This document shows, piece by piece, positions 494-25,420 of a stretch of 29,287 bases of DNA. The position numbers were made by a program, and so were the translations under genes. The notes below the pieces were generated by a model. The model did no database searches and had not been told where the DNA came from. It was given only the letters and a program-made list of their open reading frames with translations. Position 1 is the stretch's first letter; the number at the start of each line of letters is the position of its first letter. The DNA lies in IMG/VR virus record IMGVR_UViG_3300036398_002640, positions 1-29,287 of that record; one strand, 5' to 3'. This stretch comes from a virus.

Positions 494-1549
494 ATGAATA
501 CAGAACTTATCCCAAAAATTCAAGAATCAATTCAAAAACTAAAAAATAAAGAATGTAGAATCTATTTTTTAGTACAAGACACAAAAGGCAATGCAAAAGC
601 GTCAGTTAGATTTATCTATGAAATTGCATACACCCTAAAACAAAACGGATTTAATTCAATCATCATGCACGAGCAGAATGATTATAAAGGAGTATCTTCT
701 TGGTTATCTGAAAAATACATGGAGTTACCACATAAATCGATTGAAGACCAAAATTTAGAGTTGTCTCCTGAAGATTTTTTAGTTATTCCTGAATTATATG
801 GACACGTTATGGAACAAATTTCTAAATTCCCTTGTGGAAAAATTGTGATTTCACAATCATATGATTATATGTTAGAAACTTTATCTCCAGGCGCCACTTG
901 GTCCCAATATGGATTTTTGAAGTGTATTACAACATCAGAAGAACAAAAAGATTATTTAGAAAAAATAATGAAAAATATTTCGTATGATATTTTAACACCA
1001 ACAATAAGTGAGTCTTTTAAAGAAAAAGAAATACCTGCAAAACCAATTATTTCTGTTCACACTAGAGACCAAAGAGATACAATGAAATTAATTAAAACTT
1101 TTTATCTAAAATACCCACAATACAGATGGTTTACTTTTAGAGATATGAGAGGTTTAAGTGAAAGTGAATTTGCTGAGCTTTTAAAGGATTCTTTTGTTTC
1201 TGTTTGGATAGACAATGAATCATCTTTTGGTACTTTCCCGTTAGAAAGCATGAAGACAAAAACACCTGTAATTGGTAAAATACCAAATATAAAACCTAGT
1301 TGGATGGATGAACATAACGGTATTTGGGTAAATGATACTTTGTTAATTGTTGATGTTTTGGCGGAATTTATACAGAATTGGTTAGAAGACAACATTTCTG
1401 AAAAATTATATGAATCTTCAATGGAAACAGCTAAAAAATTTAGTGATGTTCAAAAATTTGAAAATGACACAGTAGAATTATTTTCAAAGTATATAAACAA
1501 AAGACTTCAGAATTTTGAAGAGCAATTAGAAAAAATACAATTAAATTAA
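494..1549 (+). CDS. GT-B fold glycosyltransferase (GT4-like)
   Basis: The likely role is transfer of a sugar from a nucleotide-sugar donor. The N-terminal half (about 20-170) looks like a Rossmann acceptor domain, with hydrophobic strand I-Y-F-L-V, then A-S-V-R-F-I-Y-E-I-A and a strand N-S-I-I-M. The C-terminal half carries the GT4-type donor-site signature: E-S-S-F-G-T-F-P-L-E-S-M at residues 242-253, followed by K-T-P-V-I-G and later G-I-W-V-N. The length of 351 aa is normal for a single-domain-pair GT-B enzyme. The next gene, 2 bases after the stop, is a GT-A enzyme, so the two may act in sequence on the same target. Candidates are virion proteins or modified phage DNA; nothing in the sequence decides between them. 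There is no signal peptide, so it should be cytoplasmic. Confidence 0.75.
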   Translation: MNTELIPKIQESIQKLKNKECRIYFLVQDTKGNAKASVRFIYEIAYTLKQNGFNSIIMHEQNDYKGVSSWLSEKYMELPHKSIEDQNLELSPEDFLVIPELYGHVMEQISKFPCGKIVISQSYDYMLETLSPGATWSQYGFLKCITTSEEQKDYLEKIMKNISYDILTPTISESFKEKEIPAKPIISVHTRDQRDTMKLIKTFYLKYPQYRWFTFRDMRGLSESEFAELLKDSFVSVWIDNESSFGTFPLESMKTKTPVIGKIPNIKPSWMDEHNGIWVNDTLLIVDVLAEFIQNWLEDNISEKLYESSMETAKKFSDVQKFENDTVELFSKYINKRLQNFEEQLEKIQLN

Positions 1550-1551
1550 TT

Positions 1552-2361
1552 ATGAATACTAAATTAGATATATCAGTAATACTTCCAATATCTTCTTCAT
1601 TTGGAAAAGATTTTGAAGAGCTTTTTGATAAAGCAATACAATCAATAAAAAAACAATCAGTTGGTGTGGGTGAATTAGTTATTGTACATACCGATGAAGA
1701 AAACCTTTGTAACTTTTTAAGTTCTTACGATTTTGAAGATTTAACAGTTAATAAAGTTTTAAATACAAGTTCGGACACGGATTATGCAAGTCAAATAAAT
1801 TTAGGAGTTAAAAATTCAAAATATGATTGGGTTAGTTTTTTTGAATACGATGATGAATATTCATTTATTTGGTTTAAAAATGTTAAAGATTATATAAATT
1901 ATCACCCTGAATGTGATGGATTTTTACCAATCGTTGTTGATGTAGATGAAAAAGGAATATTTGCAGGATACACAAACGAAGCAACATTTGCAGCATCATT
2001 TAATACTGAGATTGGTATTTTAACAAATGATTTATTAAACATGTATCAAAATTTCCAATCTAGTGGTATGGTGTTAAAAAAATCATTAATTGATAATTTT
2101 GGTGGATTCAAAAAATCAATGAAATTAACTTTTGTTTATGAATTTTTACTTAGACTAACTTATAATTCGGCAAGAATTATGACAATACCGAGACTTGGTT
2201 ACAAACATATCAACATGAGAGAGTCTTCAATTTTTTGGAGTTATAAAAATGGTAAAACACCAATGTCTGACAATGAAGTTAAATTTTGGATTGATACCGC
2301 AAAAAAAGAATATTTTTTCAATTCCGATAGAAATATAAAATATGAAGAAACAAATTCTTAA
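1552..2361 (+). CDS. GT-A fold glycosyltransferase (GT2-like)
   Basis: This 269-aa protein begins with a typical GT2 first strand, I-S-V-I-L-P-I at 7-13, and a following helix containing the A-I-Q-S-I-K-K-Q-S pattern of this family. A second core block, N-L-G-V-K-N-S-K-Y-D-W-V-S-F-F (residues 83-97), precedes an acidic D-x-D-like motif, E-Y-D-D-E-Y, at 98-103, which would bind the metal and nucleotide-sugar. The third conserved part is less clear, with an F-x-x-S-G-M-V-L-K-K block near 165-175. It follows the GT-B gene after 2 bases, and its stop overlaps the sigma-factor start as TAATG, so the three are surely co-transcribed. The substrate is unknown. The family call is firmer than any role. 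Confidence 0.72.
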   Translation: MNTKLDISVILPISSSFGKDFEELFDKAIQSIKKQSVGVGELVIVHTDEENLCNFLSSYDFEDLTVNKVLNTSSDTDYASQINLGVKNSKYDWVSFFEYDDEYSFIWFKNVKDYINYHPECDGFLPIVVDVDEKGIFAGYTNEATFAASFNTEIGILTNDLLNMYQNFQSSGMVLKKSLIDNFGGFKKSMKLTFVYEFLLRLTYNSARIMTIPRLGYKHINMRESSIFWSYKNGKTPMSDNEVKFWIDTAKKEYFFNSDRNIKYEETNS

Positions 2362-3119
2362 TGATTTTAGAAGATATCAATTCAACTGGTATTACGCAAG
2401 ACCATCAAAGTAAACGTGGAAAAAAAAATACTTCTACAACTAATTATTTTGATGTTAGAGAAGAAAATGCGGTAGTTCTTTTTCTAAATGCGGAAACTAT
2501 TGAAGAAAGAAATAAGATTTACAATGAGTTTTTGAAGAAACCTATCGAAAAAATGGTTTCTTCTATTATTAGAAGGTACAAACTTTATAGGAAAGATATG
2601 TCGTTTGATGAAATATTAAACGACACTCATTCGTTTTTAATAACTAAATCAGATAAATTTGTTCCTGATAAAAATAAAAAGGCGTATTCTTATTTCGGTA
2701 CAATTTGTAAAAATTATTTAATGGGTCAAATTATTAAAGACCAAAAAGAAATAAACCGAAAAGTATCTTATGAGGATATATCATCTAACTTAGAAAATAG
2801 ACCAGATATGGTTTATTATATTGAAAACGACGCTGTTGAATCGGATAAAATAATATCTGATTATATTGGTATGTTAAAAGAATTTATTAAGAACAGTAAT
2901 TTAAACGAGAATGAAACAAGACTAGGAGAAGCATTACTTCAATTATTTGAAACATACGACCAAATTTTTGTTGCTCACGATAATAAAAAGTTTAATAAAA
3001 ATTTAGTTTTATTGTCTTTAAGAGAAATGACCAATCTGTCAACCAAAGAAATAAGATTAAGTATGAAAAGGTATAAAAAACTTTATTTTGATTTTGTCAA
3101 AAAAATAGATTTAAGATAA
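2361..3119 (+). CDS. Late-type sigma factor, T4 gp55-like
   Basis: Probable phage sigma factor that redirects host RNA polymerase to late promoters. Residues about 57-130 fit sigma-70 region 2: a first helix P-I-E-K-M-V-S-S-I-I-R-R-Y, then D-E-I-L-N-D-T-H-S-F-L, then F-V-P-D-K-N, then Y-S-Y-F-G-T-I-C-K-N-Y-L, matching the core-binding and -10-recognition helices. At 252 aa it is slightly longer than T4 gp55. The C-terminal part (about 214-245, L-S-L-R-E-M-T-N-L-S-T-K-E-I-R) resembles a helix-turn-helix and could serve as a reduced region 4. The start overlaps the preceding stop as TAATG. The recurrent TATTTAT(A/T) sites in this window are its most likely targets, which is inference. A generic DNA-binding protein is the alternative. 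Confidence 0.72.
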   Translation: MILEDINSTGITQDHQSKRGKKNTSTTNYFDVREENAVVLFLNAETIEERNKIYNEFLKKPIEKMVSSIIRRYKLYRKDMSFDEILNDTHSFLITKSDKFVPDKNKKAYSYFGTICKNYLMGQIIKDQKEINRKVSYEDISSNLENRPDMVYYIENDAVESDKIISDYIGMLKEFIKNSNLNENETRLGEALLQLFETYDQIFVAHDNKKFNKNLVLLSLREMTNLSTKEIRLSMKRYKKLYFDFVKKIDLR

Positions 3120-3134: not shown

Positions 3135-3142
3135 TATTTATA
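3135..3142 (+). promoter_or_regulatory. TATTTATA motif, putative late promoter
   Basis: TATTTATA lies in the 26-base gap after the sigma gene, ending 3 bases before the ATG at 3146. It is one of twelve such sites, always read toward the following gene. If it is a -10 element, the message would be leaderless or nearly so. Confidence 0.55.
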
Positions 3143-3145: not shown

Positions 3146-3523
3146 ATGACAAGACCTAAAAAAAAAGAAATACTTTTAAACAAAGAATCTATATTGTCTT
3201 TAATGCAAGAAATATATAATGAATTGGTTGAACAAAGAGCAACCGCAATAAGAATTCAAAATAAAATGTTGTCAATGATGAAAGACAGTTCTGATATGGC
3301 AATAATTGGACCAATAATTAAAGAACAACAAAAGATTGTAAACGATACTGTTGAAAAAAAATTAACATTATCTAAACTACAATCAACTATTTGGGAAAAG
3401 GCAATCAATAAAAATGATAAAGAAAATTTTTCTGTGAGCGATTTTGACGATAAACTAATCCAAGATTTACTATTGAAAGATATTTCAAATACAACAGACG
3501 AAGGATATAAACTTAACAAATAA
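3146..3523 (+). CDS. Hypothetical protein, 125 aa, helical
   Basis: No family recognised. The protein is highly charged and predicted mostly helical, with a basic N-terminus (T-R-P-K-K-K) and long amphipathic stretches rich in Lys, Gln and Ile that could form coiled coil (about 12-95). It ends in a more polar tail. It sits between the sigma factor and the large presumed baseplate gene, preceded by a TATTTATA site 3 bases before the ATG and followed after 10 bases by the next start. A chaperone or assembly role in the tail or baseplate would fit the position, but nothing in the sequence proves it. The next internal Met is at residue 20, so the first ATG is preferred. Confidence 0.7.
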   Translation: MTRPKKKEILLNKESILSLMQEIYNELVEQRATAIRIQNKMLSMMKDSSDMAIIGPIIKEQQKIVNDTVEKKLTLSKLQSTIWEKAINKNDKENFSVSDFDDKLIQDLLLKDISNTTDEGYKLNK

Positions 3524-3533: not shown

Positions 3534-5708
3534 ATGTCCGAATCAACAACAACTACGGAAGATTATAAAAAATTAAATAAAGTCATTAATTCATATAAAA
3601 AAACAAAAAGAATTAATGAACAGCAAAAAGAACTAAGAAAAAATCCTCAAAATTCCAATAGTCAAACATCTAAAGAAATTGAGGCCACAGAATCTAAAGT
3701 AAAAAAGAAAGTTGAGACTTACACTCAAAAGGCAAAAGATTTACCAAAATCTTTTAAACAAAATAGTGAAAATCAATTAAGAAAATTGGTTCAAACATAT
3801 ATTACATCAAAAGAAAATAACGACGTTGATGGTAAAAATATAAATAACGAAACAGAAAAAATAAAAGAGTTAAAACAAAAAGAAGCACAATTTCAAAAAG
3901 AATTAACCAATGCGGTTGTAACTAATAACGTCCCTGAACAAAAAAGATTAAATGGGTTATTAGAAAAGACTAAAAAAGATATTAGAAGAGCTGAACTTAA
4001 TGTTTTTAAAACAGATACCAAAAAAGACGCGATTGCAGCTTTAAGAAACTCACTTATTCAAGCCGTAACTAGAACTAAAGACGAAATAAAAGACATATTA
4101 AAAAATGAATATGTAAGTGCTTTAGGGTGTTCTCAGGAACAAAATTACCAAGACAAAGAAATTTATATAAAAGTATCAAATATAGATATATTTGGAAAAA
4201 CATTACAAACAAATCCAAATGGAGTTCCTGGTAAGTACGTTTATGAATTTAAACCATTTACCGCATCTTCAATTCCAAGGTCGTTTAATCGCGAATTATG
4301 GAATAGAATACAAAAAGAAGGGCAAACTTATGAGGATGAATACAGTACACCGTATGTTGGGGTTTCAGGACAAGACTTATTTGATATTGAATTCATTAAA
4401 GACCCAACACCAACATTAACAGGTGAATTTTTTAAAGTTACACTAAAAAAAAGAATTGGTGGAAACAGTGTCGCAGAATTTTTATTGGACTATCTAAACA
4501 CAATTGATGTTCTTAATTTTAACGAACTTTTTTCTAATGTTTTAAATCTGTTGATTGGTTCAATAAACATGAAAAATTTGATTGGTTATGATGATTTAAG
4601 AAATCAAACAGTATTTGAAAAACTAATACAAAGAGTTCTTGGTTTATGTTTTGACAATAAACAAGAAATAGATGTTACAGGAACTGGTAAACTAGATTCT
4701 TCAGACCAAATTGATGATAGTTTTTTTGAATTAACAGAAGAAGATTTATTAGAAATTGAAAATAAAATAAAAAATATTCAAGAAAACGTAGTGCAGTATA
4801 AGGATTGTGGTGCGTTGTCATTACCTGTAAATGTTGATGGTTCATTATCGTTAATTGATGAATTTTTAGTTGAAGATATGACCGCTCAGGATGCAGATAA
4901 AGCAGCTCAAAACATGTTAGACAGCTTAGGTTCAAATCCCGATTGGTTAGTTGAATATCCGCAATTTAATTTTTCAAATATCATTAATGAAGAATTTATA
5001 AATCTATTACCAATAGCAGTTTTAAATTCAGTTTTATCTCCAAAACATTTATTTCCATTATTTGTAATGGCAAAGGCATTACAAAAAGATTATGTTGATG
5101 GTATTGATACAACTGAAGATTTCTTTAAAGAATTTAGAAAAATGGTTATAAACATTACTTCTAAAATACAGGCGATTTTTGTTAAACAACTTTTTATTGC
5201 GATAAAACAAAATTTAAAATCTTTGATGGCATCAATTGTGAGACAGACCGCAGATGAAATATTAACAAATAAACAAAAACTAATATTAGCTGGTGTTAAT
5301 TTAGCTCTGACCACACTTGCAACAATTCAAGATTTTAGAAGATGTAAAAACGTTGTTGATGAATTATTGAATATTGTTTCTTTAAGTTTAGCACTAAAAA
5401 ACGCACTAAGAGGAACATCTTCTGACGTACCAACAATAATAAACTATATAGCCGCGGCAACAAAACCAGGCATGAGCCCAACTAGCATATTAACAAAATT
5501 TATTGAAAAAATGGAGGAGCAAGGAGTTCCAACAGGTGATATGCCAAGTGGAAAACCAAATATTGGGTTATTAATGACTAAAAGTTTAAATGAGGCAATA
5601 ATTGACGAAATGACACAAAATGGTTATGCTCAAACAACCGTAACCGCAAAAGAAATAGGTATAATATCACAAACTGGTTTTGTTAAAATAAAAGGAAATG
5701 TTTTATGA
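3534..5708 (+). CDS. Large uncharacterised protein, probable virion/baseplate component
   Basis: This 724-aa protein has no family I can name. Its N-terminal 170 residues are Lys/Glu/Gln-rich, low-complexity and probably coiled coil. The middle (about 190-330) looks like a compact beta-rich domain with several aromatic residues and a G-C-S-Q-E-Q segment. The C-terminal half (about 480-650) is alpha-helical and hydrophobic, with segments such as I-N-L-L-P-I-A-V-L-N and L-A-G-V-N-L-A-L-T-T-L-A, which look like buried helices more than true membrane spans. It ends with a short V-K-I-K-G-N-V-L tail. The stop overlaps the next start as ATGA. Translational coupling to a gene lying directly before the gp5-like gene argues for a baseplate or tail role. 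This is context-based inference. Confidence 0.7.
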   Translation: MSESTTTTEDYKKLNKVINSYKKTKRINEQQKELRKNPQNSNSQTSKEIEATESKVKKKVETYTQKAKDLPKSFKQNSENQLRKLVQTYITSKENNDVDGKNINNETEKIKELKQKEAQFQKELTNAVVTNNVPEQKRLNGLLEKTKKDIRRAELNVFKTDTKKDAIAALRNSLIQAVTRTKDEIKDILKNEYVSALGCSQEQNYQDKEIYIKVSNIDIFGKTLQTNPNGVPGKYVYEFKPFTASSIPRSFNRELWNRIQKEGQTYEDEYSTPYVGVSGQDLFDIEFIKDPTPTLTGEFFKVTLKKRIGGNSVAEFLLDYLNTIDVLNFNELFSNVLNLLIGSINMKNLIGYDDLRNQTVFEKLIQRVLGLCFDNKQEIDVTGTGKLDSSDQIDDSFFELTEEDLLEIENKIKNIQENVVQYKDCGALSLPVNVDGSLSLIDEFLVEDMTAQDADKAAQNMLDSLGSNPDWLVEYPQFNFSNIINEEFINLLPIAVLNSVLSPKHLFPLFVMAKALQKDYVDGIDTTEDFFKEFRKMVINITSKIQAIFVKQLFIAIKQNLKSLMASIVRQTADEILTNKQKLILAGVNLALTTLATIQDFRRCKNVVDELLNIVSLSLALKNALRGTSSDVPTIINYIAAATKPGMSPTSILTKFIEKMEEQGVPTGDMPSGKPNIGLLMTKSLNEAIIDEMTQNGYAQTTVTAKEIGIISQTGFVKIKGNVL

Positions 5709-5905
5709 TTATAGATTTAGAAAAAATAGAAAAAATAATTTCAGAACCAAGTAGTTTTAATAATAAAGAACTTATGGAATGTATGGATATACTTGCAAAC
5801 GAACATGAAAAAGTTAAAGAGTCTATCATACAAATGACATATCAAGTAGATAAACTTGAAAATTCTTATAATAAAATTTTGGAAGAATATAAGAAAAGAA
5901 AATAA
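5705..5905 (+). CDS. Small helical protein, 66 aa
   Basis: A short, almost entirely helical protein with heptad-like hydrophobic spacing from about residue 25 onward (I-I-Q-M-T-Y-Q-V-D-K-L-E-N-S-Y), consistent with a coiled coil, and a basic C-terminus. It is coupled on both sides: its ATG overlaps the upstream stop as ATGA and its stop overlaps the downstream start as TAATG. This double overlap in a virion operon is good evidence that it is real. A small assembly factor or structural linker is plausible. No homologue is recognised and no function is assigned. Confidence 0.7.
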   Translation: MIIDLEKIEKIISEPSSFNNKELMECMDILANEHEKVKESIIQMTYQVDKLENSYNKILEEYKKRK

Positions 5906-7464
5906 TGAATCGTTTTAATGATTATACAAATTTACCAAAAAAATATACACAGGTTTTTAATTTTGGTAGAGTAATTGACAACAAAGACCCAATGAATTTG
6001 GGCAGAATTCGTTTGCAAGTGGATAACTGGCAAAATGAAGATATTATTAATTCGTTTAAAAACCCTGTAACAGGTAAACCTTTAACAGAAAATGACTATT
6101 GGACCGATGTTGACCCATTGGTTTTTATGCCGTTATTACCACAATTTTTTAGCCAAGTACCACAAATAAATGAATCAGTTCATGTCGTATATTATAATTT
6201 AGATTACCAAGACAGAAATAAGTACTACATACAAGGTATGTTTTCAAGTCCAAACGAATTAATTGGAGAACCTTTTGAATCTTCTCAAGCATTTACATCA
6301 AAAGGGGAAAGAAACAAACTACCACAAGATATTAGAAATAAAGATGGTTCAATGAAAGAAACATCACAGTCAGGATTATATCCAGATGTAAAAACAATTG
6401 GGATTTTAGGTAGAAATAATTCTGATATGTTATTACCTCCTGACTCAGCAATGTTTAGAGTATACAAAAAAAATGTGAATGAAAATGGTAATCCAATCTT
6501 TAACAAAAAATTTGGTATGGTTGGATTACAAAAATTTGATACGAGAAAAGTTGAAAATACTAATCAAACTTTTACAGAACAAGGAAATGTAGTACAAAAA
6601 ATAAAATATTTGGTTGAGTATGATGTATATGGTGGTGTTGGTAGTTTATTGGGTAGGTTTTCGGGATACGTTAGGATATATAAAATATCTGATTATAGAC
6701 CCGTATACTCAACAAGTGTTTTAAATGGTTTTTATAGTTTTCCTGAAGAAAGTTTAATTGGTCCTGTATATCAAAAAGATTTTACATTTGATTCTCGTGA
6801 TGACATTATATCTGGTATTAATAATGTAATATCACTTATGAATAGTGGTTCGTTTTCTTTGGGGGGAACAGGAACAACAATAAATGAACCAATACCTTTC
6901 GTTTTCCAACCATCAAAAAATTTTTGGGATAAATACGAATTAAATGTTGATGTTTCAGCAACTGAAGTTATAAACTTAAGGAGATTCTTTGAAGGTATAT
7001 ACTTAAACAAGCAAGACTCAACTAGAGGTATTGGATACGTTTCAGAAAAAGATAGATTAGGACCACTAAAATCATTTCAGACATATAAAATCCCTAATGA
7101 ACAATACGAATTTAACCCTATTGTTTACGGAATAAATGTTGCCAATACTTCTTTTTTTCTTTCACATGATACACAAGTAGGTGTAACCAAAATTGATTTT
7201 GATACTATAGATTTTTCAGGAACAACAATACCGCAACAATTTATTGAAAATATTATGATTCCAAATACTAATTCTATGGTGAGAGGTGAACAATTATTGG
7301 ACCTTATAGAATTAATTGTTAGGTTTTTAGTTTCTCACGTACATCCATACCATAATATGGGTCCAGATTCACAAAGTGTTGATGGTACACAAGTACAAAC
7401 TATTTTAACAAAACTTTACGATGCCGATAGTAAAATTTTAAATAAAAACTTACGCATTAACTAA
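5905..7464 (+). CDS. Baseplate hub/spike protein with N-terminal OB fold (gp5-like)
   Basis: Probable component of the tail tip that pierces the host envelope. The N-terminus has the phage OB-fold pattern: F-N-F-G-R-V-I-D-N-K-D-P-M-N-L-G-R-I-R-L-Q-V, followed by W-T-D-V-D-P-L-V-F-M-P-L-L-P, then E-S-V-H-V-V-Y-Y and Y-Y-I-Q-G-M-F-S-S-P. This parallels the first domain of T4 gp5 and its cyanophage relatives. The C-terminus (about 450-519) holds a helix followed by H-V-H-P-Y-H-N-M-G-P, also usual in this class. I see no lysozyme domain like that inserted in T4 gp5. The 519-aa length, and position between uncharacterised structural genes, fit a baseplate block. The following TATTTATA touches its stop codon. 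Confidence 0.78.
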   Translation: MNRFNDYTNLPKKYTQVFNFGRVIDNKDPMNLGRIRLQVDNWQNEDIINSFKNPVTGKPLTENDYWTDVDPLVFMPLLPQFFSQVPQINESVHVVYYNLDYQDRNKYYIQGMFSSPNELIGEPFESSQAFTSKGERNKLPQDIRNKDGSMKETSQSGLYPDVKTIGILGRNNSDMLLPPDSAMFRVYKKNVNENGNPIFNKKFGMVGLQKFDTRKVENTNQTFTEQGNVVQKIKYLVEYDVYGGVGSLLGRFSGYVRIYKISDYRPVYSTSVLNGFYSFPEESLIGPVYQKDFTFDSRDDIISGINNVISLMNSGSFSLGGTGTTINEPIPFVFQPSKNFWDKYELNVDVSATEVINLRRFFEGIYLNKQDSTRGIGYVSEKDRLGPLKSFQTYKIPNEQYEFNPIVYGINVANTSFFLSHDTQVGVTKIDFDTIDFSGTTIPQQFIENIMIPNTNSMVRGEQLLDLIELIVRFLVSHVHPYHNMGPDSQSVDGTQVQTILTKLYDADSKILNKNLRIN

Positions 7465-7472
7465 TATTTATA
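7465..7472 (+). promoter_or_regulatory. TATTTATA motif, putative late promoter
   Basis: This octamer directly follows the stop of the gp5-like gene and ends 4 bases before the ATG at 7477, filling almost the whole 12-base gap. It is read in the direction of the next gene like the other sites. Confidence 0.55.
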
Positions 7473-7476: not shown

Positions 7477-8976
7477 ATGTCTATACACAAATCATATCTA
7501 AATAGAAATAACACAATTATTTCTAGCGGTACTACAAATACAGGACAAAATCCTGTAACTGAATTATTTTTTGGTAGGGTTGATAATGTTTTATCCACAC
7601 CAGGATATTCAAGATTTATTTTTGACATAGATTTGTCACAACTACAAGAAAAAATCACAAATGGGATTGTTTACACAGGAAGTCCAATGACTCATGTGTT
7701 TAAAATGACCAATACGATAATGTTTAATTATGAATTATTAAACACAACAACATCTGACAATAGAAGAAGAGCCACGGGTTTTAATTTAAATTTGTTTAGA
7801 ATACCTAAATTTAATTTAACAGGTACACCACAAAATTGGGATGAAGGTGTTGGTTATGATTATTACAACAATAATAATTTAAATTCTTCTAACGCTAGTT
7901 TAACATCAAGAAACTACAGGGATAATGACAAGTCATATTCTAATCGACCATCAAATTGGTTTAATTCAACAACAATTAGTGGGTGGAGTACAAATGGTGT
8001 TTATAACAATTTAAATAACGGTATTGGAAATGTTATAAATTTTTCAGCCTTAACATTAGTCGATACTCAATATTTTGAATTTGGTAATGAGAATATTGAA
8101 TTTAACATGACTAATGAAATTAATAATATTTTAACGGGTGCAACAACAGGTGTTACAGGATATATTATTTCATTTGACCCCGAAATAGAAAATATAACAG
8201 GATTAACTGAAAATTATTCGGTAGGTTTCTTTACAAGACATACACAAACATTCTACGAACCATTTTTAGAAACAACATATGATGATTTAATTTTAGATGA
8301 TAGAACTAAATTTTTTGAGAATAAAGTAAATAAATTATACTTATATTCTTATATAGACGGCACACCAACGAATTTAGATTTTAACCCAACAGTTAATATT
8401 GCAGACTCAAATGAAGATTTAATATCTTCTTTAACGGGTTTAACAACAGTTTTAAGAACTCAAGGTATATACGAAGTAGAAATACCTGCAATTACAGGAT
8501 ATTCAACACCATGTCAATTTAACGATATTTGGGTTAACTGTACACTAAATGGAAGAGCAATTGGTAATATAACCAATGAATTTATTCTAAGACCCGCAAC
8601 CGAGTACTATCAAATTGGTACTCTATCAAAAAACCCTGAAACTTACGGGTTTAGTTTTTCAGGTATTAAACAAGATGAAAAAATATTAAATACCGATACA
8701 AGAAAAGTTGTGGTAACTATTAAACAGGCTTATTCTTCAAATATTGTATATCCTGATTTTAAGGCATACTACAGAGTATTTGTTAACGAAGGTACAACTG
8801 AAGTTATTGTCCAAGATTGGACTAGAATAAATCAAACATCAAATGAATATTATTTTATCTTTGATACAAAAGATAAAGTTCCAAACCAATATTTTGTAGA
8901 CATAAAAGTTCTTTCTTCGGGAGAAGTAGATACTTATAAAAGACAACTTAAATTTGAAATAGTAAATAAGAAATGA
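7477..8976 (+). CDS. Probable virion structural protein, beta-rich, 499 aa
   Basis: The composition is dominated by Asn, Thr, Ser, Gly, Tyr and Phe with many short alternating hydrophobic segments, the profile of a beta-sandwich or fibre-type phage surface protein. Segments such as L-S-T-P-G-Y-S-R-F-I-F-D-I-D near the N-terminus and an Ig-like C-terminal part (about 380-495, with Y-R-V-F-V-N and F-V-D-I-K-V-L) are visible. A low-complexity Asn-rich stretch, Y-D-Y-Y-N-N-N-N-L-N, occurs near 128-137. I see no enzymatic motif or signal peptide. It follows the gp5-like gene with its own TATTTATA site, and its stop overlaps the next start as ATGA. A baseplate-attached or tail-surface role is inferred from order and composition only. 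Confidence 0.72.
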   Translation: MSIHKSYLNRNNTIISSGTTNTGQNPVTELFFGRVDNVLSTPGYSRFIFDIDLSQLQEKITNGIVYTGSPMTHVFKMTNTIMFNYELLNTTTSDNRRRATGFNLNLFRIPKFNLTGTPQNWDEGVGYDYYNNNNLNSSNASLTSRNYRDNDKSYSNRPSNWFNSTTISGWSTNGVYNNLNNGIGNVINFSALTLVDTQYFEFGNENIEFNMTNEINNILTGATTGVTGYIISFDPEIENITGLTENYSVGFFTRHTQTFYEPFLETTYDDLILDDRTKFFENKVNKLYLYSYIDGTPTNLDFNPTVNIADSNEDLISSLTGLTTVLRTQGIYEVEIPAITGYSTPCQFNDIWVNCTLNGRAIGNITNEFILRPATEYYQIGTLSKNPETYGFSFSGIKQDEKILNTDTRKVVVTIKQAYSSNIVYPDFKAYYRVFVNEGTTEVIVQDWTRINQTSNEYYFIFDTKDKVPNQYFVDIKVLSSGEVDTYKRQLKFEIVNKK

Positions 8977-9704
8977 AAAAACAAATAGTAAAAGAATCAT
9001 TTGATTTTTGGAGCACCATATCAAATTTTGTGGGTGACTTAGCCAGACAAACCGCAGGTGCTGTTGACGTTTTAGGTGACCCAATAGTAATTGCATCGTT
9101 AGTGAAAAACTACAATGAAATAGAAGAAACCCTTCAAAGATTTGAAAATTTAAAAAATCAATTATTAGGTCCTGAAATGGAATTAAACTATGAGAGTCTA
9201 AAAGAAGAAATGTTAGACATTAGAAACGATTTGGAAGTAGACGTTATTGATACTTTACAAGGTTTTGTTGAATTAACCCCAACAGGTCCTTTAGGTTCTC
9301 TAGCGTCGGGTATCGCACCATTACTTTTGAAGATGACAATAGAAGAGCTTATTGATACAATTCAGGAGTACATTCCACAAGATTTAGATGTTCCATTATT
9401 AGGAACACTAACTAATGCCGCTAGAGCAATTTATTTTATTGATAATATAGAAAAAGTTCAAAAAGAAATGAAACCGCTTCACGATGACCCATCAGTTTTT
9501 TCAAAGGAAGTTATTGAAAGATTAATGGTACATGAAGGAAAAAAGAAATCAGGAACAAAACTTTGTAGTAGAGGCAAATCGGCTGCGAAAGCAAAATTTG
9601 ATGTTTACCCTTCTGCGTACGCTAATGGATATGCAATTCAAGTATGTAAAGGTAAAATTAAAGGATTAGACGGAAAAAAAAGGTGTTCACCACCTTATTG
9701 TTAA
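8973..9704 (+). CDS. Virion-region protein with C-terminal Cys/basic module (DUF5872-like)
   Basis: The first about 180 residues are helical with hydrophobic stretches (G-P-L-G-S-L-A-S-G-I-A-P-L-L-L near 110-124). The last about 50 form a different module containing K-L-C-S-R-G-K-S-A-A-K-A-K-F, then Y-P-S-A-Y-A-N-G-Y-A and V-C-K-G-K, with a Cys at the C-terminus. This pattern recurs at the ends of many environmental T4-like phage proteins and resembles DUF5872; its function is not known to me. Four Cys and many Lys suggest metal or nucleic-acid binding. The gene starts by ATGA overlap and is the last of the plus-strand run. Its stop overlaps that of the convergent gene, which carries a related Cys-rich module. 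Confidence 0.75.
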   Translation: MKKQIVKESFDFWSTISNFVGDLARQTAGAVDVLGDPIVIASLVKNYNEIEETLQRFENLKNQLLGPEMELNYESLKEEMLDIRNDLEVDVIDTLQGFVELTPTGPLGSLASGIAPLLLKMTIEELIDTIQEYIPQDLDVPLLGTLTNAARAIYFIDNIEKVQKEMKPLHDDPSVFSKEVIERLMVHEGKKKSGTKLCSRGKSAAKAKFDVYPSAYANGYAIQVCKGKIKGLDGKKRCSPPYC

Positions 9705-10870
9705 TTGATTTTTAAATCGTCAATTTTTTTAAATTTATCTTCACTATAATCAGTAAATTTTCTAATTATATTCATTAATTGACCGTACTTATCTGTTTTG
9801 TCAAATAAGTTCATGATTTTGTTAGAATCCATTGGGTCATTAATATCGTTATAAAAAATAATTCCTTGTGGTGATGGATATCTACCACCTAAGTAATTTT
9901 CACCTGGTTTGTTTATATACATACCAAATTTAGAAGATTCTAATTTGGCTTGTAATTCTTTATTTTTTATTATTATATAACCTAAAGAACCCATTCTATT
10001 ATGTTTCTTAAACATATCATCACTATCTTTAGATGTTGTACACCATTTTGTTCCCGCACCATATTTACATGATGCGTCAAACGTCAAAGGTATTACTAGT
10101 AAAAAATCATCATTTTCAAAAAGTTTAATATATTCATGTGGTTCAACTTTAAACTTTTCAGAAATCACGCTTTTACTTAATATACTTTCTTTTTTTGGTT
10201 TATAAGATGTATATATTGGTTTTTGACCTTTACCTGTTTGTGTGTCTTTTTTCTCCGCTTTCCTTTTTTGTGAACACGCAGATTTTTTTTGTGAGTCAGA
10301 CATTTTACCTGCAACACCCGCCGCTCTACATTTTGGATATGCACCCTTAGACGTATCAGGTCTTCCACATGGTGGATGTTTACCATCTACTTTTCTACAA
10401 ATATTAACCCAAGGACCTTTTGGTTGTTTACTTCCTTTTGGTTTTTTCTTAGTTCCAAACCAAACCGCCAAATCTTCAGTGAGCAAATTAACTAAATTTA
10501 AAATTTGTTCAGATACACTACCGCCTGATTCACCGCCAGCGTTATCACCATCTCCCAATCCATCACTATCAACTCCTTGAAATTTGTGTTTAAGTTTTTT
10601 AGCCATTTTATGTGCTATATGTTCTTTTGTTTTTACGTTTTTTGAATCTATTATTCCATCTAAACTATCGTAATTAACTTCAGCACTTTCATATTTTGAG
10701 ATTGGTACGATAAAAGGTGATAAAGCATTTTTTTCCCAATCCATTAGACCAGGACTAATTGGCGGTTTATAACTACCAGAACCACCTGATACCGTAGCTT
10801 CATTTATATTTTCCCAAACAGTAAAATCATTTGATTTTATATCCTTGTATATTACTTTATCTTTTGACAT
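9701..10870 (-). CDS. Protein with DUF5872-like Cys module and C-terminal GxGTKWCT domain
   Basis: I place the start at the ATG at 10870 (389 aa). A longer frame to 10960 adds a Lys/Ile-rich leader and runs over the divergent gene and the TATTTATA site. Residues 30-50 are Gly/Ser/Pro-rich. Residues about 152-208 hold a basic module with Cys at 158, 168, 181 and 199, including P-P-C-G-R and Y-P-K-C-R-A-A. The C-terminal domain (about 235-389) contains K-Y-G-A-G-T-K-W-C-T-T at 269-279, a signature found in assorted phage proteins whose activity I do not know. It is the last minus-strand gene, downstream of the capsid gene but separated by the 78-aa plus-strand gene. Conserved Cys, His and Trp leave an enzymatic role open. 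Confidence 0.72.
   Translation of the reverse strand: MSKDKVIYKDIKSNDFTVWENINEATVSGGSGSYKPPISPGLMDWEKNALSPFIVPISKYESAEVNYDSLDGIIDSKNVKTKEHIAHKMAKKLKHKFQGVDSDGLGDGDNAGGESGGSVSEQILNLVNLLTEDLAVWFGTKKKPKGSKQPKGPWVNICRKVDGKHPPCGRPDTSKGAYPKCRAAGVAGKMSDSQKKSACSQKRKAEKKDTQTGKGQKPIYTSYKPKKESILSKSVISEKFKVEPHEYIKLFENDDFLLVIPLTFDASCKYGAGTKWCTTSKDSDDMFKKHNRMGSLGYIIIKNKELQAKLESSKFGMYINKPGENYLGGRYPSPQGIIFYNDINDPMDSNKIMNLFDKTDKYGQLMNIIRKFTDYSEDKFKKIDDLKIN
9703..9730 (+). terminator. Possible weak terminator for the plus-strand virion operon
   Basis: Bases 9703-9711 (AATTGATTT) can pair imperfectly with 9714-9725 (AAATC, bulge, CAATT), followed by a T run at 9724-9730. It lies directly after the stop at 9704 but is A/T-rich with a bulge, so it would be weak. 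It is coding for the convergent gene. Confidence 0.3.
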
Positions 10871-10886: not shown

Positions 10887-10894
10887 TATAAATA
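10887..10894 (-). promoter_or_regulatory. TATTTATA motif (minus), putative late promoter
   Basis: Read on the minus strand this is TATTTATA, 16 bases before the ATG at 10870. Read on the plus strand it is TATAAATA, the T4 late consensus, 9 bases before the ATG at 10904. It sits alone in a 33-base divergent gap and could serve either or both genes. Confidence 0.5.
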
Positions 10895-11172: not shown

Positions 11173-12999
11173 TTATCTCAATTCTCTCAAATCAAATGTT
11201 CTAACACCATCAACAGTCACTTTACCGTAGAAACGGTTGTTAACCATCTTCTTAGCGTATCTTGTCATGATACCTTTGATTGGTGTGAAGTTGAATGGGT
11301 TATACATTGTTGGAGTTAATTGTAGAGGAACATATGGTGCGTAAACATAACCAGTGTCTAACAACGAGTTACCTTTGTGACCCAACAACAATGTGTTTGG
11401 TGGGAAATAAGGGTCTCTGTAGACTTGGTATCTACCTGCCAATGTACCTACTCTTTCAATACCCATGTTGTATTGGTCTTGCTCAGGTGCTGCGTTTGAT
11501 ACGTGGAAGTATTCCAAATCATCAAAAATTGCACTGATTTCAGAAGATACAACAATCCAGTTAGCTCCACCTCTTAATGTAGATTTGTGGATTTGAGCCG
11601 ACAATTGGTTGATTGCTGTCATCAACGTTTGGTTCCAATCTTTTTGAGTATATTGAGTTAATGGATTTGCGGTTGTACCTCTCTTCCATCCGTTGTAATC
11701 CCAACGTAAAGTCCATGCCGCACCTTTTCTTAAGTCTCTCAAGATTTCTCTGTCGATTTCAGCAGCAACTTGCTCTGACAATAAAGCAGTTAATTCAGCT
11801 TCAGCATCAATATTATGGAACGCTGCAACGTCTTGTGCTAATTCAGGTGACCACTGAGCTCTTAATTTTCTTTCAGTAACTGATACTGTAACAGATTCAA
11901 GGTCAAATGAAACTTCACCGATTTGGTCTTCAAATTCCAATTCTTTATAGATTCTATAAGTCATTGAGAAATCTAAACCATTAGTTGAGCTTACTGTTGT
12001 AGTTAAACCAGAATATCCGTCTAATGAACCTGCTCCGATTGAACATGGAACTTGAGCATCAACTTCTAAGTAAATAATACCGTCTGCATCACAGATATTA
12101 TCATATGTACCACCGTTACCACCAGGGTTAGAACCACTTGTGTTAGGGAAGTTTGTAGTTGTGCTTGAACCATATTGTACAATACCTTTACCATATTTTT
12201 GAGTAACAACTCTGAACAAACATGGAGCTGACATTCCTGAGAATGGGTGGTTAACACCTGCTTCTGTGATTGGTGCGATTGTCATACCAGCCAAGAATTC
12301 TTCAGTATCCATTTCATTACCGTTTGGTCCGATTAATTTACCAGCACCACTGTAGTTAAATCCTGAGAAAGCTACTAAAACTTTTCTGTATGGACCACCA
12401 GTTGTAGTATAACCTGAATTAACTAATTGACCTCCATTCCAAACTTGTGTACAACCTGTAACTGTTCTAGCTGAGAATGCTCCTTTAGAATAATCAAATA
12501 ATCCAGGTGGGTCTAAATCTGGTTCAGTACCTTCATAGAATCTATCATATAAATTCTTATCATTTGCACCATAACCAGTGTCAGGTGAAGAAGGTCCGTT
12601 AGGTGCTCCAAAAGGTGAATAGTGGTAGCCACCAGTGGTTGGGTCTTGTTGACCTGTTGTGTAACCTTGAATTTTAGGTACAAAGTAGAACAATTTACCG
12701 ATAGGTAAGTTCATTGCTTGTACAGAAACGATGTCGTTAGCTAACAACTTAGAGAAAACTCTTCTTACGATTGGGAATACAACCGTTTCGAAAGAACCGT
12801 CTGAAGATGTGCTAGCAGCTTCGTTTATTAAGTGTGATGCTTGGTTTTCATAAAGTTGAGCGATGTTTTCTTTAACATGACCTCTCAAACCTTCTAGGAA
12901 CCCAAGTCTGTCCCATTTGTTGATTGTATCTTCTTTGATAACTTTAAGGTGCTTAAGACCAATGTTACCAACAAGACCTGATTCTAATAATGCTCCCAT
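11173..12999 (-). CDS. 23: Major capsid protein, T4 gp23-like
   Basis: Main shell protein of the head. The N-terminus matches the gp23 family: W-D-R-L-G-F-L-E-G-L (29-38), N-I-A-Q-L-Y-E-N-Q-A (45-54), then F-E-T-V-V-F-P-I-V-R-R-V-F (70-82) and L-A-N-D-I-V-S-V-Q-A-M-N-L-P (86-99). The match continues to an internal block with F-D-L-E-S-V-T-V-S-V-T-E-R-K-L-R-A and to a basic C-terminus. The sequence I-N-E then A-A at 58-62 fits the gp21 cleavage rule (Ile/Leu-x-Glu), so the mature protein probably begins near Ala61, close to the T4 cleavage position. At 608 aa it is longer than T4 gp23, with Gly/Thr/Ser-rich segments around 110-320 that may be surface loops. No TATTTATA lies in the 28-base gap before it, so it is presumably read through from the scaffold gene. 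Confidence 0.95.
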   Translation of the reverse strand: MGALLESGLVGNIGLKHLKVIKEDTINKWDRLGFLEGLRGHVKENIAQLYENQASHLINEAASTSSDGSFETVVFPIVRRVFSKLLANDIVSVQAMNLPIGKLFYFVPKIQGYTTGQQDPTTGGYHYSPFGAPNGPSSPDTGYGANDKNLYDRFYEGTEPDLDPPGLFDYSKGAFSARTVTGCTQVWNGGQLVNSGYTTTGGPYRKVLVAFSGFNYSGAGKLIGPNGNEMDTEEFLAGMTIAPITEAGVNHPFSGMSAPCLFRVVTQKYGKGIVQYGSSTTTNFPNTSGSNPGGNGGTYDNICDADGIIYLEVDAQVPCSIGAGSLDGYSGLTTTVSSTNGLDFSMTYRIYKELEFEDQIGEVSFDLESVTVSVTERKLRAQWSPELAQDVAAFHNIDAEAELTALLSEQVAAEIDREILRDLRKGAAWTLRWDYNGWKRGTTANPLTQYTQKDWNQTLMTAINQLSAQIHKSTLRGGANWIVVSSEISAIFDDLEYFHVSNAAPEQDQYNMGIERVGTLAGRYQVYRDPYFPPNTLLLGHKGNSLLDTGYVYAPYVPLQLTPTMYNPFNFTPIKGIMTRYAKKMVNNRFYGKVTVDGVRTFDLRELR

Positions 13000-13027: not shown

Positions 13028-14413
13028 TTATTTTAATTTTGACATCAAATCTTTCATTCTTAAGAATTGTGGATTTTCATATGTCTTGTTTTCAACCAAG
13101 TTTGTTGAACCTTTAGTTGGTGTTCTATCAATAGATTCTACGATAGATTCTTTAACAACTGTATTTTCTTTAACACCTAATTCATTTTTTATTTGTGAAT
13201 AAAGATTTTTTGATTCCTTGATTGTTTCGACGTTATCAAAACGTCTCATGATGTTTATTTTTTCTTGTTTAGTTGTAGAATGTTCTGTAAACAATCTAGT
13301 TGCGTATGCCAAGTTTGAATTAAAGACTGCAACCTCATTAAGTTTTTCTCTGAAGATATTCAAAGCTTTTCTGTATTCTTCGTTTTTAAGTCTTAAAACT
13401 CTAACTTCTTCTTCTAAAGCTTTGTTAGTAACAACTTTCATTTTAGGAAGACCTCTACCTGGGTAATTTCTTGAACCATTACCATAGGTTCTTGAAGCTT
13501 CTTTCATTTCATCTTCACGTGTCTCAAAACCAGCATCATCTCTTCTTGATTTCATTGATTTTAAATCTTTCTTAGATAACGCTCCATGTTCCATTCCTTC
13601 TTTTTCATCTTCATGGTCATCATAACCTTGACCTTCTTTAAATTCACCTTTTACGTATTTTTTAGCTTCAGGTGCTGATTTACCATGAGGCCCTTTGTGA
13701 ATGTTTTCACCCTTGAACGATACCTTACCAGGTCCTTTACCCATACCTACTCCTACATAGGTTTTTTCTTTAGATTCCATCATACCTTCTTTTTCATCAT
13801 CATAGTCACTTATTCCATCTTCATCATCATCAGAGATTTCAATTTCATAAACAACTTCTTCTGCTAGTTCATCATTAGAATCATCATCATCCATTGATGG
13901 TTCTGATAAATCTTCACCACCACCAATAGGAAATGTCATTGTGTCTGTTTGAGATAAAACATCAACATCTAACTCATCACCCATTTTTTGAACGATAAGT
14001 CTGTCACTGTCACCCATACCCATAACAATCTTCATTAATTCTTCATCTGATGCACCAACCATGTTTAAAGGTTCGATTTCATCATCCATCATGTCATCAT
14101 CATCGTTCATCATAGTGATGTCATCTGTCATTGACATTTCATCACCAGCGTCGTCAGATGCTGTCATGTCGATAGTCATAGAATCTTCGTCTTCATCTTC
14201 ATACATACTCATGTGAGTACCTTCTGTGTTGTAAGATTCATCTGCCATCATTTCTTCCTCAGTCTTATCGTATAAAGACTCTTTTACTAATTCTTCGATT
14301 TCTTCCTTCATTGTAGAAGCAAGTATTCCTTTTGCGTTTTCAGAAACCACATTTTCCAAATTTTTCATTTGTAAAAGAGCTTCTTCAACTAATGATTTTT
14401 TTTCTGAATTCAT
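13028..14413 (-). CDS. 22: Prohead core scaffold, T4 gp22-like
   Basis: Assigned from position between protease and capsid genes and from composition. The ATG at 14413 (M-N-S-E-K-K, 461 aa) is preferred over the upstream TTG at 14422. The N-terminal 50 residues are helical. Residues about 55-125 are extremely acidic and Met-rich (runs such as D-D-D-D-M-M-D-D-E), typical of internal core proteins that are later degraded. A further acidic patch follows near 165-205, then a basic Lys/Gly region, then a long helical C-terminus with a coiled-coil-like stretch (V-L-R-L-K-N-E-E-Y-R). Several Leu/Ile-x-Glu sites suitable for the gp21-like protease are present. It is longer than T4 gp22 and may merge roles of smaller core proteins. 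Confidence 0.82.
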   Translation of the reverse strand: MNSEKKSLVEEALLQMKNLENVVSENAKGILASTMKEEIEELVKESLYDKTEEEMMADESYNTEGTHMSMYEDEDEDSMTIDMTASDDAGDEMSMTDDITMMNDDDDMMDDEIEPLNMVGASDEELMKIVMGMGDSDRLIVQKMGDELDVDVLSQTDTMTFPIGGGEDLSEPSMDDDDSNDELAEEVVYEIEISDDDEDGISDYDDEKEGMMESKEKTYVGVGMGKGPGKVSFKGENIHKGPHGKSAPEAKKYVKGEFKEGQGYDDHEDEKEGMEHGALSKKDLKSMKSRRDDAGFETREDEMKEASRTYGNGSRNYPGRGLPKMKVVTNKALEEEVRVLRLKNEEYRKALNIFREKLNEVAVFNSNLAYATRLFTEHSTTKQEKINIMRRFDNVETIKESKNLYSQIKNELGVKENTVVKESIVESIDRTPTKGSTNLVENKTYENPQFLRMKDLMSKLK

Positions 14414-14444
14414 TTTTTGCAATAAAAATTTGTTTTATTTTCCA

Positions 14445-14452
14445 TATAAATA
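14445..14452 (-). promoter_or_regulatory. TATTTATA motif (minus), putative late promoter for scaffold-capsid unit
   Basis: It reads TATTTATA on the minus strand, 31 bases before the ATG at 14413 and just downstream of the hairpin terminator at 14494-14520. This arrangement, terminator then motif then gene, supports a promoter role. It has the longest spacing of the twelve sites. Confidence 0.6.
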
Positions 14453-14765: not shown

Positions 14766-15488
14766 TTATCTATGTCCCAAATAATCGTTCAATTTTGTCA
14801 TTAAGTCAAGTGATTTTCCTAATCCGCCATCAATTCTTGGTTCTTGTTTGTCTTTTTTGTCTACATCTATATTTTCGTCATACAATTTTCTATCATCTTT
14901 ATTAGAATAAAGATACGCACCTGGTGTAGATGGATTCATAACCAAATCAAAACATATAATTTCAAAATCATCTTGAACTTCGTTGTGTTCGCCTTTTTTT
15001 GCTAAAGAACCAACTCCTCTTGAAGATATCCCCATAGTAACACCTTGTCTCATTAGATTGGCCGCGATATCTCCTTTTGTAGATACAACACCTCTTTCAT
15101 GAAAACCTGGTGAAGTTAATAATCTTAACTTACCCATTAAAATATTATCATCCCACCATACATCATCAATTATGTGTGACACTCTGTCCAAATCAATTAG
15201 GGAAGATTCAGGATGATTTAATTCTGAAGTTGATAAACCTTTTTGAATTAATGATTTATATTTATCCGCTTCTCTTCTTAATATTTTTTCAGGGTAAACT
15301 CTGCCGTTTCTATTTGGTACCCCATACTTTTGTAAAGTCGCGTAAAACACAAAAGGTTTTGAATGGTCAATTTGAGTTTTATTTGCTTGTCCAAAATTCT
15401 CGTTTAAAGAATCTTTCCAAGAAATACTACCCGCATCATATTCAATTAATATACCTTTACCAGTTTCGTTTGGTCCTAAAATTTTCAT
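14766..15488 (-). CDS. 21: Prohead maturation protease, T4 gp21-like
   Basis: Serine protease that cleaves the capsid and core proteins during head maturation. The family blocks are clear: N-R-N-G-R-V-Y-P at 59-66, E-L-N-H-P-E at 89-94 with the likely catalytic His92, V-S-H-I-I-D-D-V-W-W at 103-112, and G-I-S-S-R-G-V-G-S at 153-161 with the catalytic Ser in the S-S pair. It ends the core with D-L-V-M-N-P-S-T-P-G-A. At 240 aa it is close to T4 gp21. The last 40 residues are acidic and polar, probably a removable tail. It is preceded by a TATTTATA site at 15502-15509 and followed by the DUF4494-like gene. Its expected recognition rule (Leu/Ile-x-Glu) is met in the capsid protein. Confidence 0.92.
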   Translation of the reverse strand: MKILGPNETGKGILIEYDAGSISWKDSLNENFGQANKTQIDHSKPFVFYATLQKYGVPNRNGRVYPEKILRREADKYKSLIQKGLSTSELNHPESSLIDLDRVSHIIDDVWWDDNILMGKLRLLTSPGFHERGVVSTKGDIAANLMRQGVTMGISSRGVGSLAKKGEHNEVQDDFEIICFDLVMNPSTPGAYLYSNKDDRKLYDENIDVDKKDKQEPRIDGGLGKSLDLMTKLNDYLGHR

Positions 15489-15501: not shown

Positions 15502-15509
15502 TATAAATA
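15502..15509 (-). promoter_or_regulatory. TATTTATA motif (minus), putative late promoter for protease
   Basis: TATTTATA on the minus strand, 13 bases before the protease ATG at 15488, in the 31-base gap after the 148-aa gene. Confidence 0.55.
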
Positions 15510-19178: not shown

Positions 19179-20954
19179 TTATCTTCTTCCTCCACCGAAT
19201 AACCATAAATACTTTTCATAATCACTTTTTGTCGGATTACTTCCAAATCTATCACCATAAGATGAAGGGGACATCACAGGTAATCCAGGATTAAAATCGG
19301 TTACTTCTTTATGGTCATTACTTGTTTGAACACTCCACGAGTTTAATATTGCTTTTGTTTGTTCTGTAACTTTTTCTAATTGATTATATGCATTTTGTCC
19401 TACATATAGTGCCATAGATATTGACATAATTAAATCGTCATGATGACCTTTCATATGGTCAGGTCTACCATTTATATAAACAAATGTATTCATTTCACCC
19501 AACAACCTTGGTGAATATACTTTAAATCCATGTCTTAACGCCTCCTCAAAAGCCGAAATAATCTGAACACGTTTGGCGTTAAAATTAATTCCTGGAATTT
19601 TTTCCATTGCTTTAGGATTATAATCCCATACATTAGCATAATTAACACCATCAACATAAAGATTTTTATATCCCATTTCTTGTAGTTTTCTTGATGTTGA
19701 TACACCCATACCACCTGTAATATCTACAACCACTAATGTGTCATAATACACCGCCCATTTATATGCAATTTCAGCCGCAACATCAGGTGGAATTTTACCA
19801 AGATATTCAGCAACTTGTTCTCTATCATCAAAATCAATAATTTGAAATGATGTATAATCTTCAGAATCCCCTCTTGAAACGTCAATACCCATAATGTATC
19901 TATGACCAACTTGTGGTTCTTTCCAAATCCAAAGTTGGTTTTGAACCATTTTACTTTCAGGTTGACAAACCATTTCGGTTCTTATCCTTTCGATTATTTT
20001 ACTATCAATAACATTATCACCTGAACCCAAAAAGTTACATTCCAATTCCTGTGATATTTTTCTTCTATCAAATTTTAATTTTTTGGCCATTTTTTCAAAC
20101 CAATCTGAATGTGGTTTGTATCCATTGTCCATTAATTTTTTAAATTCTTCATAGTTTCTTTCATTATGTGGAACACCTTCATAAGAAATTGTTTCTAAAT
20201 CTTTGTATTCATCTCTATTAAGATAATAATGAATAATATCGTTAACCTTAATAAATTGCAGGTCTTTTGTATATCTTGGGTCTCTCCACCAAAACATTTC
20301 AGTTATTTTAAAGTTATTCATTCCCTTAATTGATTGGTCATAGATTGGATAATAAATTGAATCATAACCATTGGGGGTTGAAATAACTATAACTTTACCT
20401 CCTGTTGAAAGGGATGCCATACAAGCAGCCCAAAAGTCGTCACCCGCTTCAATATATGCGGCTTCGTCAAATATTAATACGGTAGGGGTATAACCACGAA
20501 GTGCGTCATTGGATGTTGCAACAGCCTTTACTTCACAACCGTTTGTTAATTTCCAATGACGAGCAGCGTTTTTTTCACTTGAGAAGTCAATTCCCATCCA
20601 ATTTGGCCACTGTTCAGTAAATTGTTTAATCTTGTTTGCAAATTCGACAGATGTGTCCAATTTGTTGGCAATAATAAGAATCTTTTCAGGTTTTTCTTTT
20701 TTTGCAAATACCAATTTTTTTGATGTCCAAGCTGCCGTTACGGTAGAAACGCCCGCTTGACGATATTTTAATGCGATGTTTTCTTCATATTCATCGTAGT
20801 CATTAACAAGTTGTATTTGGTCGGAAAATAAATCTAAAGGTACAAAACGTTGTACTGTGTTGTCATATGTTTGAAGATATGTTCTTAATGCGTAAGGTGT
20901 ACTCTTAACACATTTTGCATATTCAATAAGTGCTTGTTCTCTTGTTAAACTCAT
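19179..20954 (-). CDS. 17: Terminase large subunit, T4 gp17-like
   Basis: ATP-driven DNA-packaging motor with nuclease. In the N-terminal ATPase the Walker A variant Y-R-Q-A-G-V-S-T (64-71), Walker B T-V-L-I-F-D-E (158-164) with catalytic Glu164, and coupling motif V-I-S-T-P-N-G (190-196) are all present. The C-terminal RNase H-like nuclease shows I-D-V-S-R-G (357-362, Asp358), V-V-V-D-I-T-G (408-414, Asp411) and G-H-H-D-D-L (503-508). At 591 aa it is close to T4 gp17 (610). A TATTTATA lies 4 bases upstream of the ATG. I could not identify a gp16-like small subunit; one of the uncharacterised genes upstream may take that role. Confidence 0.96.
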   Translation of the reverse strand: MSLTREQALIEYAKCVKSTPYALRTYLQTYDNTVQRFVPLDLFSDQIQLVNDYDEYEENIALKYRQAGVSTVTAAWTSKKLVFAKKEKPEKILIIANKLDTSVEFANKIKQFTEQWPNWMGIDFSSEKNAARHWKLTNGCEVKAVATSNDALRGYTPTVLIFDEAAYIEAGDDFWAACMASLSTGGKVIVISTPNGYDSIYYPIYDQSIKGMNNFKITEMFWWRDPRYTKDLQFIKVNDIIHYYLNRDEYKDLETISYEGVPHNERNYEEFKKLMDNGYKPHSDWFEKMAKKLKFDRRKISQELECNFLGSGDNVIDSKIIERIRTEMVCQPESKMVQNQLWIWKEPQVGHRYIMGIDVSRGDSEDYTSFQIIDFDDREQVAEYLGKIPPDVAAEIAYKWAVYYDTLVVVDITGGMGVSTSRKLQEMGYKNLYVDGVNYANVWDYNPKAMEKIPGINFNAKRVQIISAFEEALRHGFKVYSPRLLGEMNTFVYINGRPDHMKGHHDDLIMSISMALYVGQNAYNQLEKVTEQTKAILNSWSVQTSNDHKEVTDFNPGLPVMSPSSYGDRFGSNPTKSDYEKYLWLFGGGRR

Positions 20955-20958: not shown

Positions 20959-20966
20959 TATAAATA
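20959..20966 (-). promoter_or_regulatory. TATTTATA motif (minus), putative late promoter for terminase-portal unit
   Basis: On the minus strand TATTTATA is followed by TTTA and then the terminase ATG at 20954, in the 19-base gap after the preceding gene. Confidence 0.55.
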
Positions 20967-25412: not shown

Positions 25413-25420
25413 TATAAATA
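25413..25420 (-). promoter_or_regulatory. TATTTATA motif (minus), putative late promoter for Thr-Pro gene
   Basis: TATTTATA on the minus strand, 12 bases before the ATG at 25400, within the 30-base gap following the nucleotidyltransferase gene. Confidence 0.55.

Follow-up and report, generated by a model that had tools for sequence, protein, structure and literature searches.

A candidate gp55-type late sigma factor and its predicted promoter element in a phage close to the Far-T4 clade

One of the closest described systems is the late transcription apparatus of phage T4, with gp55, gp33 and gp45. T4 late promoters carry a -10-type element only, TATAAATA, with no -35 element and with virion genes downstream, and gp55 ends in a short tail with a hydrophobic/acidic motif that binds the sliding clamp. 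In the cryo-EM structure of gp55, E70, D74 and E77 contact the beta' clamp helices, while L54, R57, F86, H95, Y97 and T99 contact the -10 element, with Y97 stacking on A-12 and H95 facing A-9 (PMC7892883). A review of T4 late transcription asks why nature has no fused late sigma (PMC2988020). Among T4-like phages, the Far-T4 clade has been described (PMC4360716; PMC7198788), and Roux et al. (2015, PMC4360716) report finding in it none of the T4 core genes that regulate transcription.

In this study, we analyzed a stretch of 29,287 nucleotides comprising positions 1 to 29,287 of the virus record IMGVR_UViG_3300036398_002640, hereafter the window. Our analysis makes it quite probable that ORF 2361-3119 encodes a Far-T4 late sigma factor with a gp55-type sigma-2 domain, which drives TATTTATA promoters and whose C-terminal domain may permit action without gp33 and gp45. 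From computation we infer both the sigma activity of this protein and its pairing with TATTTATA. Far-T4 phages occur widely in both freshwater and the sea, and the gene is a candidate for their missing late sigma factor, together with its promoter.

Genomic setting and relatives of the sigma gene

The sigma gene sits at the end of a glycosyltransferase/metabolic block, upstream of TATTTATA. The features of the locus are as follows:

494..1549, + strand: weak GT1-like glycosyltransferase match, in the block upstream of the sigma gene
1552..2361, + strand: GT2-like glycosyltransferase, GT2 match with E 3.9e-4, below the Pfam cut-off
2361..3119, + strand: predicted late sigma factor, 252 aa, ATG start, gp55-type sigma-2 plus C-terminal helical domain
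2427..2771, + strand: sigma-2-like domain, residues ~23-137, by hhalign to gp55 and fold match to RpoS region 2
2829..3116, + strand: C-terminal helical domain, residues 157-252, conserved core, well-predicted model
3135..3142, + strand: TATTTATA, predicted -10-type late promoter element, behind the sigma gene in 129/131 relatives and enriched upstream of genes
3146..3523, + strand: companion gene, 125 aa, opening the predicted late operon; a relative lies behind the sigma gene in groups 1 and 2 and Mel-JY01
3534..7464, + strand: genes 3534-5708, 5705-5905 and 5905-7464, further along the predicted late operon, with a weak baseplate OB-domain match in 5905-7464

The first-pass annotation had described the sigma gene as coupled to the glycosyltransferase gene. 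A 1-base overlap (TAATG) indeed joins ORF 1552-2361 to ORF 2361-3119, but the linkage is local: a glycosyltransferase lies beside the sigma gene in 80/80 close relatives vs 0/110 more distant ones, which rules out the coupling as a general feature of the family. Unlike in T4, the sigma factor is encoded beside a baseplate operon, and in immuto the equivalent position behind the sigma gene runs into baseplate genes. The companion gene (~115-131 aa) is conserved behind the promoter, and its forms in groups 1 and 2 are probably homologous, as their comparison scored 27 vs a shuffled maximum of 18. Its product in the window and in relatives of both groups is small and helical.

In a close relative (G010), the sigma gene closes a co-directional block of ~20 kb (67.5-87.6 kb) that has no TATTTATA promoter, except for one TATTTAT abutting a start codon, and a promoter follows directly after it. 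This arrangement suggests that the sigma factor is made before late time and then opens the adjacent operon and others. The earlier proposal that it sets off its own downstream operon is thereby broadened and corrected: a conserved promoter-like site would drive that operon, but because the sigma gene lies upstream of TATTTATA, the factor would switch on the next operon together with many others and never its own gene.

Scans of viral contigs yielded >500 matching stretches encoding relatives of the sigma protein. The annotated relatives are gp118 of Flavobacterium phage immuto and WWT39502 of Microcystis phage Mel-JY01, and p020 (Rm378p020) of Rhodothermus phage RM378 is a very distant homologue; in all three phages the gene carries only the label 'hypothetical protein'. 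Sigma proteins of group 1 and group 2 share only ~25% identity. The window capsid is nearest to those of LR756508, Mel-JY01 and immuto, then RM378, and a T4-type gp23 capsid was present in 16/16 relatives tested; we therefore assigned the window to the vicinity of the Far-T4 clade among T4-like phages. Its likeness to the described Far-T4 phages (RM378 and the Lake Pavin contigs), immuto and Mel-JY01 lies in these closest capsids and, for RM378, also in the distant sigma homologue and a related motif, TTATTTAAA. One further relative, with 48% identity in the best segment, comes from a Prochlorococcus single-cell genome, where it is carried by a contig of 64 kb (QCKH01000009.1), which could belong to an infecting or a co-sorted phage; several other bins holding sigma relatives are Bacteroidota. 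At the right edge of the window, the large protein of 27118-29199 matches phrog_4871, an ATP-dependent protease ATPase, with E 2e-241.

The sigma-2 domain and the C-terminal domain

The window sequence by itself carries a weak region-2-like signal, which becomes firm at the level of the family. For the window protein alone, PHROG_234 'late sigma factor' was the best PHROG (E 0.044) and Sigma70_r2 reached E 0.16. No sequence match to solved structures was found. Profile-profile comparison (hhalign) of the family with T4-type gp55 gave E 1.8e-7 over residues 23-137, and a larger family scored 50 against gp55, where 40 column-shuffled controls reached at most 21. The first-pass annotation had called the protein region-2-like and had named beforehand a profile comparison with gp55 and sigma-70 region 2; that comparison bore it out on the gp55 side, and by these profiles the sigma-2 domain is homologous to that of T4 gp55. 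Against E. coli sigma factors, the family profile scored 20.2 vs 18.0 for shuffled profiles, barely above the controls. Pfam Sigma70_r2 was weakly matched by 27/54 family members; the best PF04542 score in the genomes searched was 17.6 bits vs a cut-off of 24, and the window protein scored 12.2 bits. In 14/16 phage records the only gp55-type match was the gene of the ORF 2361-3119 type and the other two had no match, so that no second gp55-type gene was found elsewhere in the 16 genomes. The homologous sigma-2 domain, the single gp55-type gene and the T4-type virion are thus shared with T4.

Residues that contact the polymerase and the promoter in gp55 were retained in part. Y97 maps to Y111 of the window protein and is Tyr in 56/56 family members, F86 maps to F/Y in 56/56, L54 maps to I/L/M, and the clamp-contact acids E70 and D74 are kept as D/E in 51/56 and 53/56 members, respectively; at E77, H95, T99, R57 and R114, most or all members carry another residue. 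The AlphaFold model of the whole protein (pLDDT 79, pTM 0.42) found sigma factors as its best PDB fold matches, in whole-factor alignments over ~260 columns, and phage sigmas and gp55 among its best viral fold matches (BFVD), with none reaching E 0.001 in either search; RpoS region 2 alone (5h6x) gave a TM of 0.70 on target with an rmsd of 3.1. The predicted fold accordingly aligns with whole canonical sigma-70 factors (SigD, RpoH, SigA) and has the same order, sigma-2 followed by a C-terminal helical domain. Unlike in those factors, no sigma-3 or sigma-4 sequence is detectable, and the C-terminal domain, when modelled by itself, gave no fold match to sigma-4.

In place of the short tail of gp55, about 95 C-terminal residues of the window family form a domain. 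Residues 157-252 were predicted as a helical domain in a domain-only model (pLDDT 85, pTM 0.75), with the conserved core NKKALYIxIREMTxxxTxxITxVI. The C-terminal helix-turn-helix proposed earlier is upheld as far as a conserved, helical and well-predicted domain goes; its helix-turn-helix nature is suggested by the pattern of its helices. No sigma-4 was found in it by profile, Pfam or fold, and a region 4 at this position was rejected, as profile comparison with four E. coli sigma factors stayed under the shuffled controls and no sigma fold matched the domain-only model. A disguised gp33 was likewise rejected for both the C-terminal domain, which has no detectable likeness to gp33 in sequence or fold, and the companion gene, in which no gp33 similarity was found. 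Whereas the T4 tail motif is hydrophobic/acidic, the window protein ends in the basic KKLYFDFVKKIDLR, and by inspection the family has no acidic tail that is conserved. Any role of the C-terminal domain in late transcription is speculative.

The element TATTTATA before virion genes

Directly behind the sigma gene, where the first-pass annotation had placed a promoter-like site, TATTTATA occupies 3135-3142 and is followed by 3 nt and the ATG of ORF 3146-3523. Among distinct relatives, TATTTAT stands directly behind the sigma gene in 58/58 of group 1 and 71/73 of group 2 (129/131), and the remainder of the gap varies freely; it was also present in 7/10 relatives from bacterial bins. A third, Mel-JY01-like set has the motif there in only 39/76, vs a shuffled baseline of 5%, and many of its sigma genes have a terminator or another gene behind them instead.

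At the window's GC content of 31%, plain TATTTATA is mildly enriched, with 9 copies vs 4.6 expected. The longer ATATTTATA has 7 copies vs 1.5 expected, a number reached in 0/100 shuffles, and all 7 lie directly before genes in sense orientation. Elsewhere in the window, TATTTATA precedes the following genes:

7465..7472, + strand: before gene 7477-8976
10887..10894, - strand: before gene 9701-10870
14445..14452, - strand: before 13028-14413 (head-region gene, listed as ORF 13028-14422 with a TTG start), then 11173-12999 (major capsid, gp23 type)
15502..15509, - strand: before 14766-15488 (head maturation protease)
20959..20966, - strand: before 19179-20954 (terminase large subunit), then 17327-19138 (portal)
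25413..25420, - strand: before gene 25002-25400

Two intragenic copies, 3839-3846 (-) and 25160-25167 (-), have no leading A and are likely due to chance.

For all motif statistics, genes were called by a simple longest-ORF script rather than a trained gene finder. ATATTTAT occurred upstream of genes 13 vs 0.35 and 32 vs 1.18 times expected in two relatives and 8 vs 0.16 times in the window, and TATTTATA 22 vs 1.3 times in immuto and 13 vs 1.8 times in Mel-JY01. The top upstream 8-mer was ATATTTAT or TATTTATA in the two relatives, the window and immuto. Read along the coding strand, TATTTATA corresponds to the reverse complement of the T4 element TATAAATA, and across five genomes the sense element stood before 81 genes vs 13 for TATAAATA (15 vs 2, 24 vs 4, 7 vs 0, 22 vs 5 and 13 vs 2). 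A T4-type late promoter is thereby ruled out, and this orientation marks TATTTATA as a different -10-type element of this clade. As in T4, the element lacks a -35 partner, none being found over 68 + 22 + 13 motif sites, which also sets these promoters apart from those of canonical sigma-70.

Among the genes with the motif are those for tail fibre, baseplate wedge, tail tube, connector and terminase, and in immuto those for terminase, gp20, a tail spike and a virion structural protein; it is missing before such genes as helicase, exonuclease and sugar genes. Of 81 motif starts, 13 have an intrinsic terminator upstream, compared with 11 of 588 others (odds ratio 10, p 4e-7). Counted from its start, the motif is most often 11-12 nt away from the ATG in group 1 (31/68 sites), mostly 18-29 nt in immuto and mostly 39-51 nt in Mel-JY01. 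As usually only 3-4 nt separate the end of TATTTATA from the ATG in group 1, the late mRNAs of many group-1 genes would be leaderless or nearly so, an arrangement unlike that of T4. In the literature library searched there was no paper on a TATTTATA phage promoter, nor one joining gp55, Bacteroidetes and a late promoter.

Proposed late transcription without recognisable gp33 and gp45, and rival readings

Whereas T4 has gp33 and gp45, neither is recognisable in the window's relatives. Profile searches of 16 relatives gave no credible match to gp33 (phrog_254; T4 control 1.6e-33), and no gp45-type clamp (phrog_223, PF02916) exceeded the cut-off in relatives, with a positive T4 control; absence here means unrecognisable by profile, in relatives that are for the most part incomplete contigs. 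Nor was a bacterial-type (DnaN) clamp found in the relatives in place of gp45. This pattern is consistent with a clamp- and coactivator-free sigma factor, and a divergent gp55-type late sigma working without gp33 and gp45 is likely. In the mechanism that we propose, the sigma-2 domain would dock on the host RNA polymerase at the beta' clamp helices and open promoters in which TATTTATA alone is conserved; the promoter directly behind the sigma gene would drive the next operon, and further TATTTATA promoters would serve the operons for head, tail, baseplate, portal and terminase. The C-terminal domain would touch the beta flap of the polymerase, the DNA upstream or both, allowing the factor to act without gp33 and gp45. 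A stricter version is a one-piece late sigma, in which a gp55-type sigma-2 and a new C-terminal domain doing the work of gp33 (beta-flap grip and upstream DNA contact) serve leaderless -10-only promoters with no clamp coupling; this we put forward tentatively, with more doubt than belief. The gp55-like family would then be a candidate for a natural fused late sigma, for which an isolated phage, Flavobacterium phage immuto, is available.

It is rather unlikely, in our judgement, that TATTTATA is a real late promoter read by another factor (a host sigma, a SigA-like sigma or an unknown regulator), with the 2361-3119 protein in a different transcription role. The -10 boxes of flavobacterial hosts are also AT-rich, and a second, canonical SigA-like sigma (R2 to R4; in the contigs ~274 aa long) is encoded in four large group-1 contigs (G001:C1:166730-167554, that is L199:6730-7554, G002, G003 and G004) and in RM378; it possibly serves early or middle genes and could serve some motif promoters. 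However, no Sigma70_r2 protein over the cut-off was found in immuto, Mel-JY01 or LR756508, and since immuto and Mel-JY01 nevertheless have the motif set, the gp55-like protein is the common denominator. Every motif-bearing genome examined has a gp55-like gene with the motif directly behind it, and a -35 element is lacking. A motif behind the SigA-like gene was given no weight, since in two of three further contigs it forms part of a terminator-like hairpin.

That TATTTATA is a signal for translation initiation or mRNA processing and no promoter at all seems to us very improbable. Its modal spacing before the ATG in group 1 resembles a ribosome-binding distance, and Bacteroidota are not known to have strong Shine-Dalgarno signals; but this spacing shifts between lineages, which points to a promoter with a lineage-specific leader, and the motif is found on a minority of genes only, has terminators enriched just upstream, and marks virion genes and not replication genes. 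We give scarcely any credence to the 2361-3119 protein being a helical DNA- or RNA-binding protein that simply resembles sigma-2: the marginal single-sequence E-values and a C-terminal domain that matches nothing would fit it, yet the family match to gp55 is far above shuffled controls, several contact residues are conserved and the fold matches are to sigma factors.

For the preferred reading, a gp55-type late sigma acting on TATTTATA, the shift from TATAAATA to TATTTATA, accompanied by altered residues in the gp55 pocket, amounts to a natural experiment on how the -10 element is recognised. If the elements are aligned base by base, the base facing H95 (A-9) is T in TATTTATA, and the changed H95 is in line with this substitution. 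In addition, TTATTTAA/TATTTAAA are enriched upstream of genes in RM378, where a shifted motif, TTATTTAAA, occurs upstream of genes 8 times vs 0.34 expected (L311, 1-50 kb) and also directly behind the sigma homologue (L288:3500-3540); it is possible that sigma and promoter changed together in this phage.
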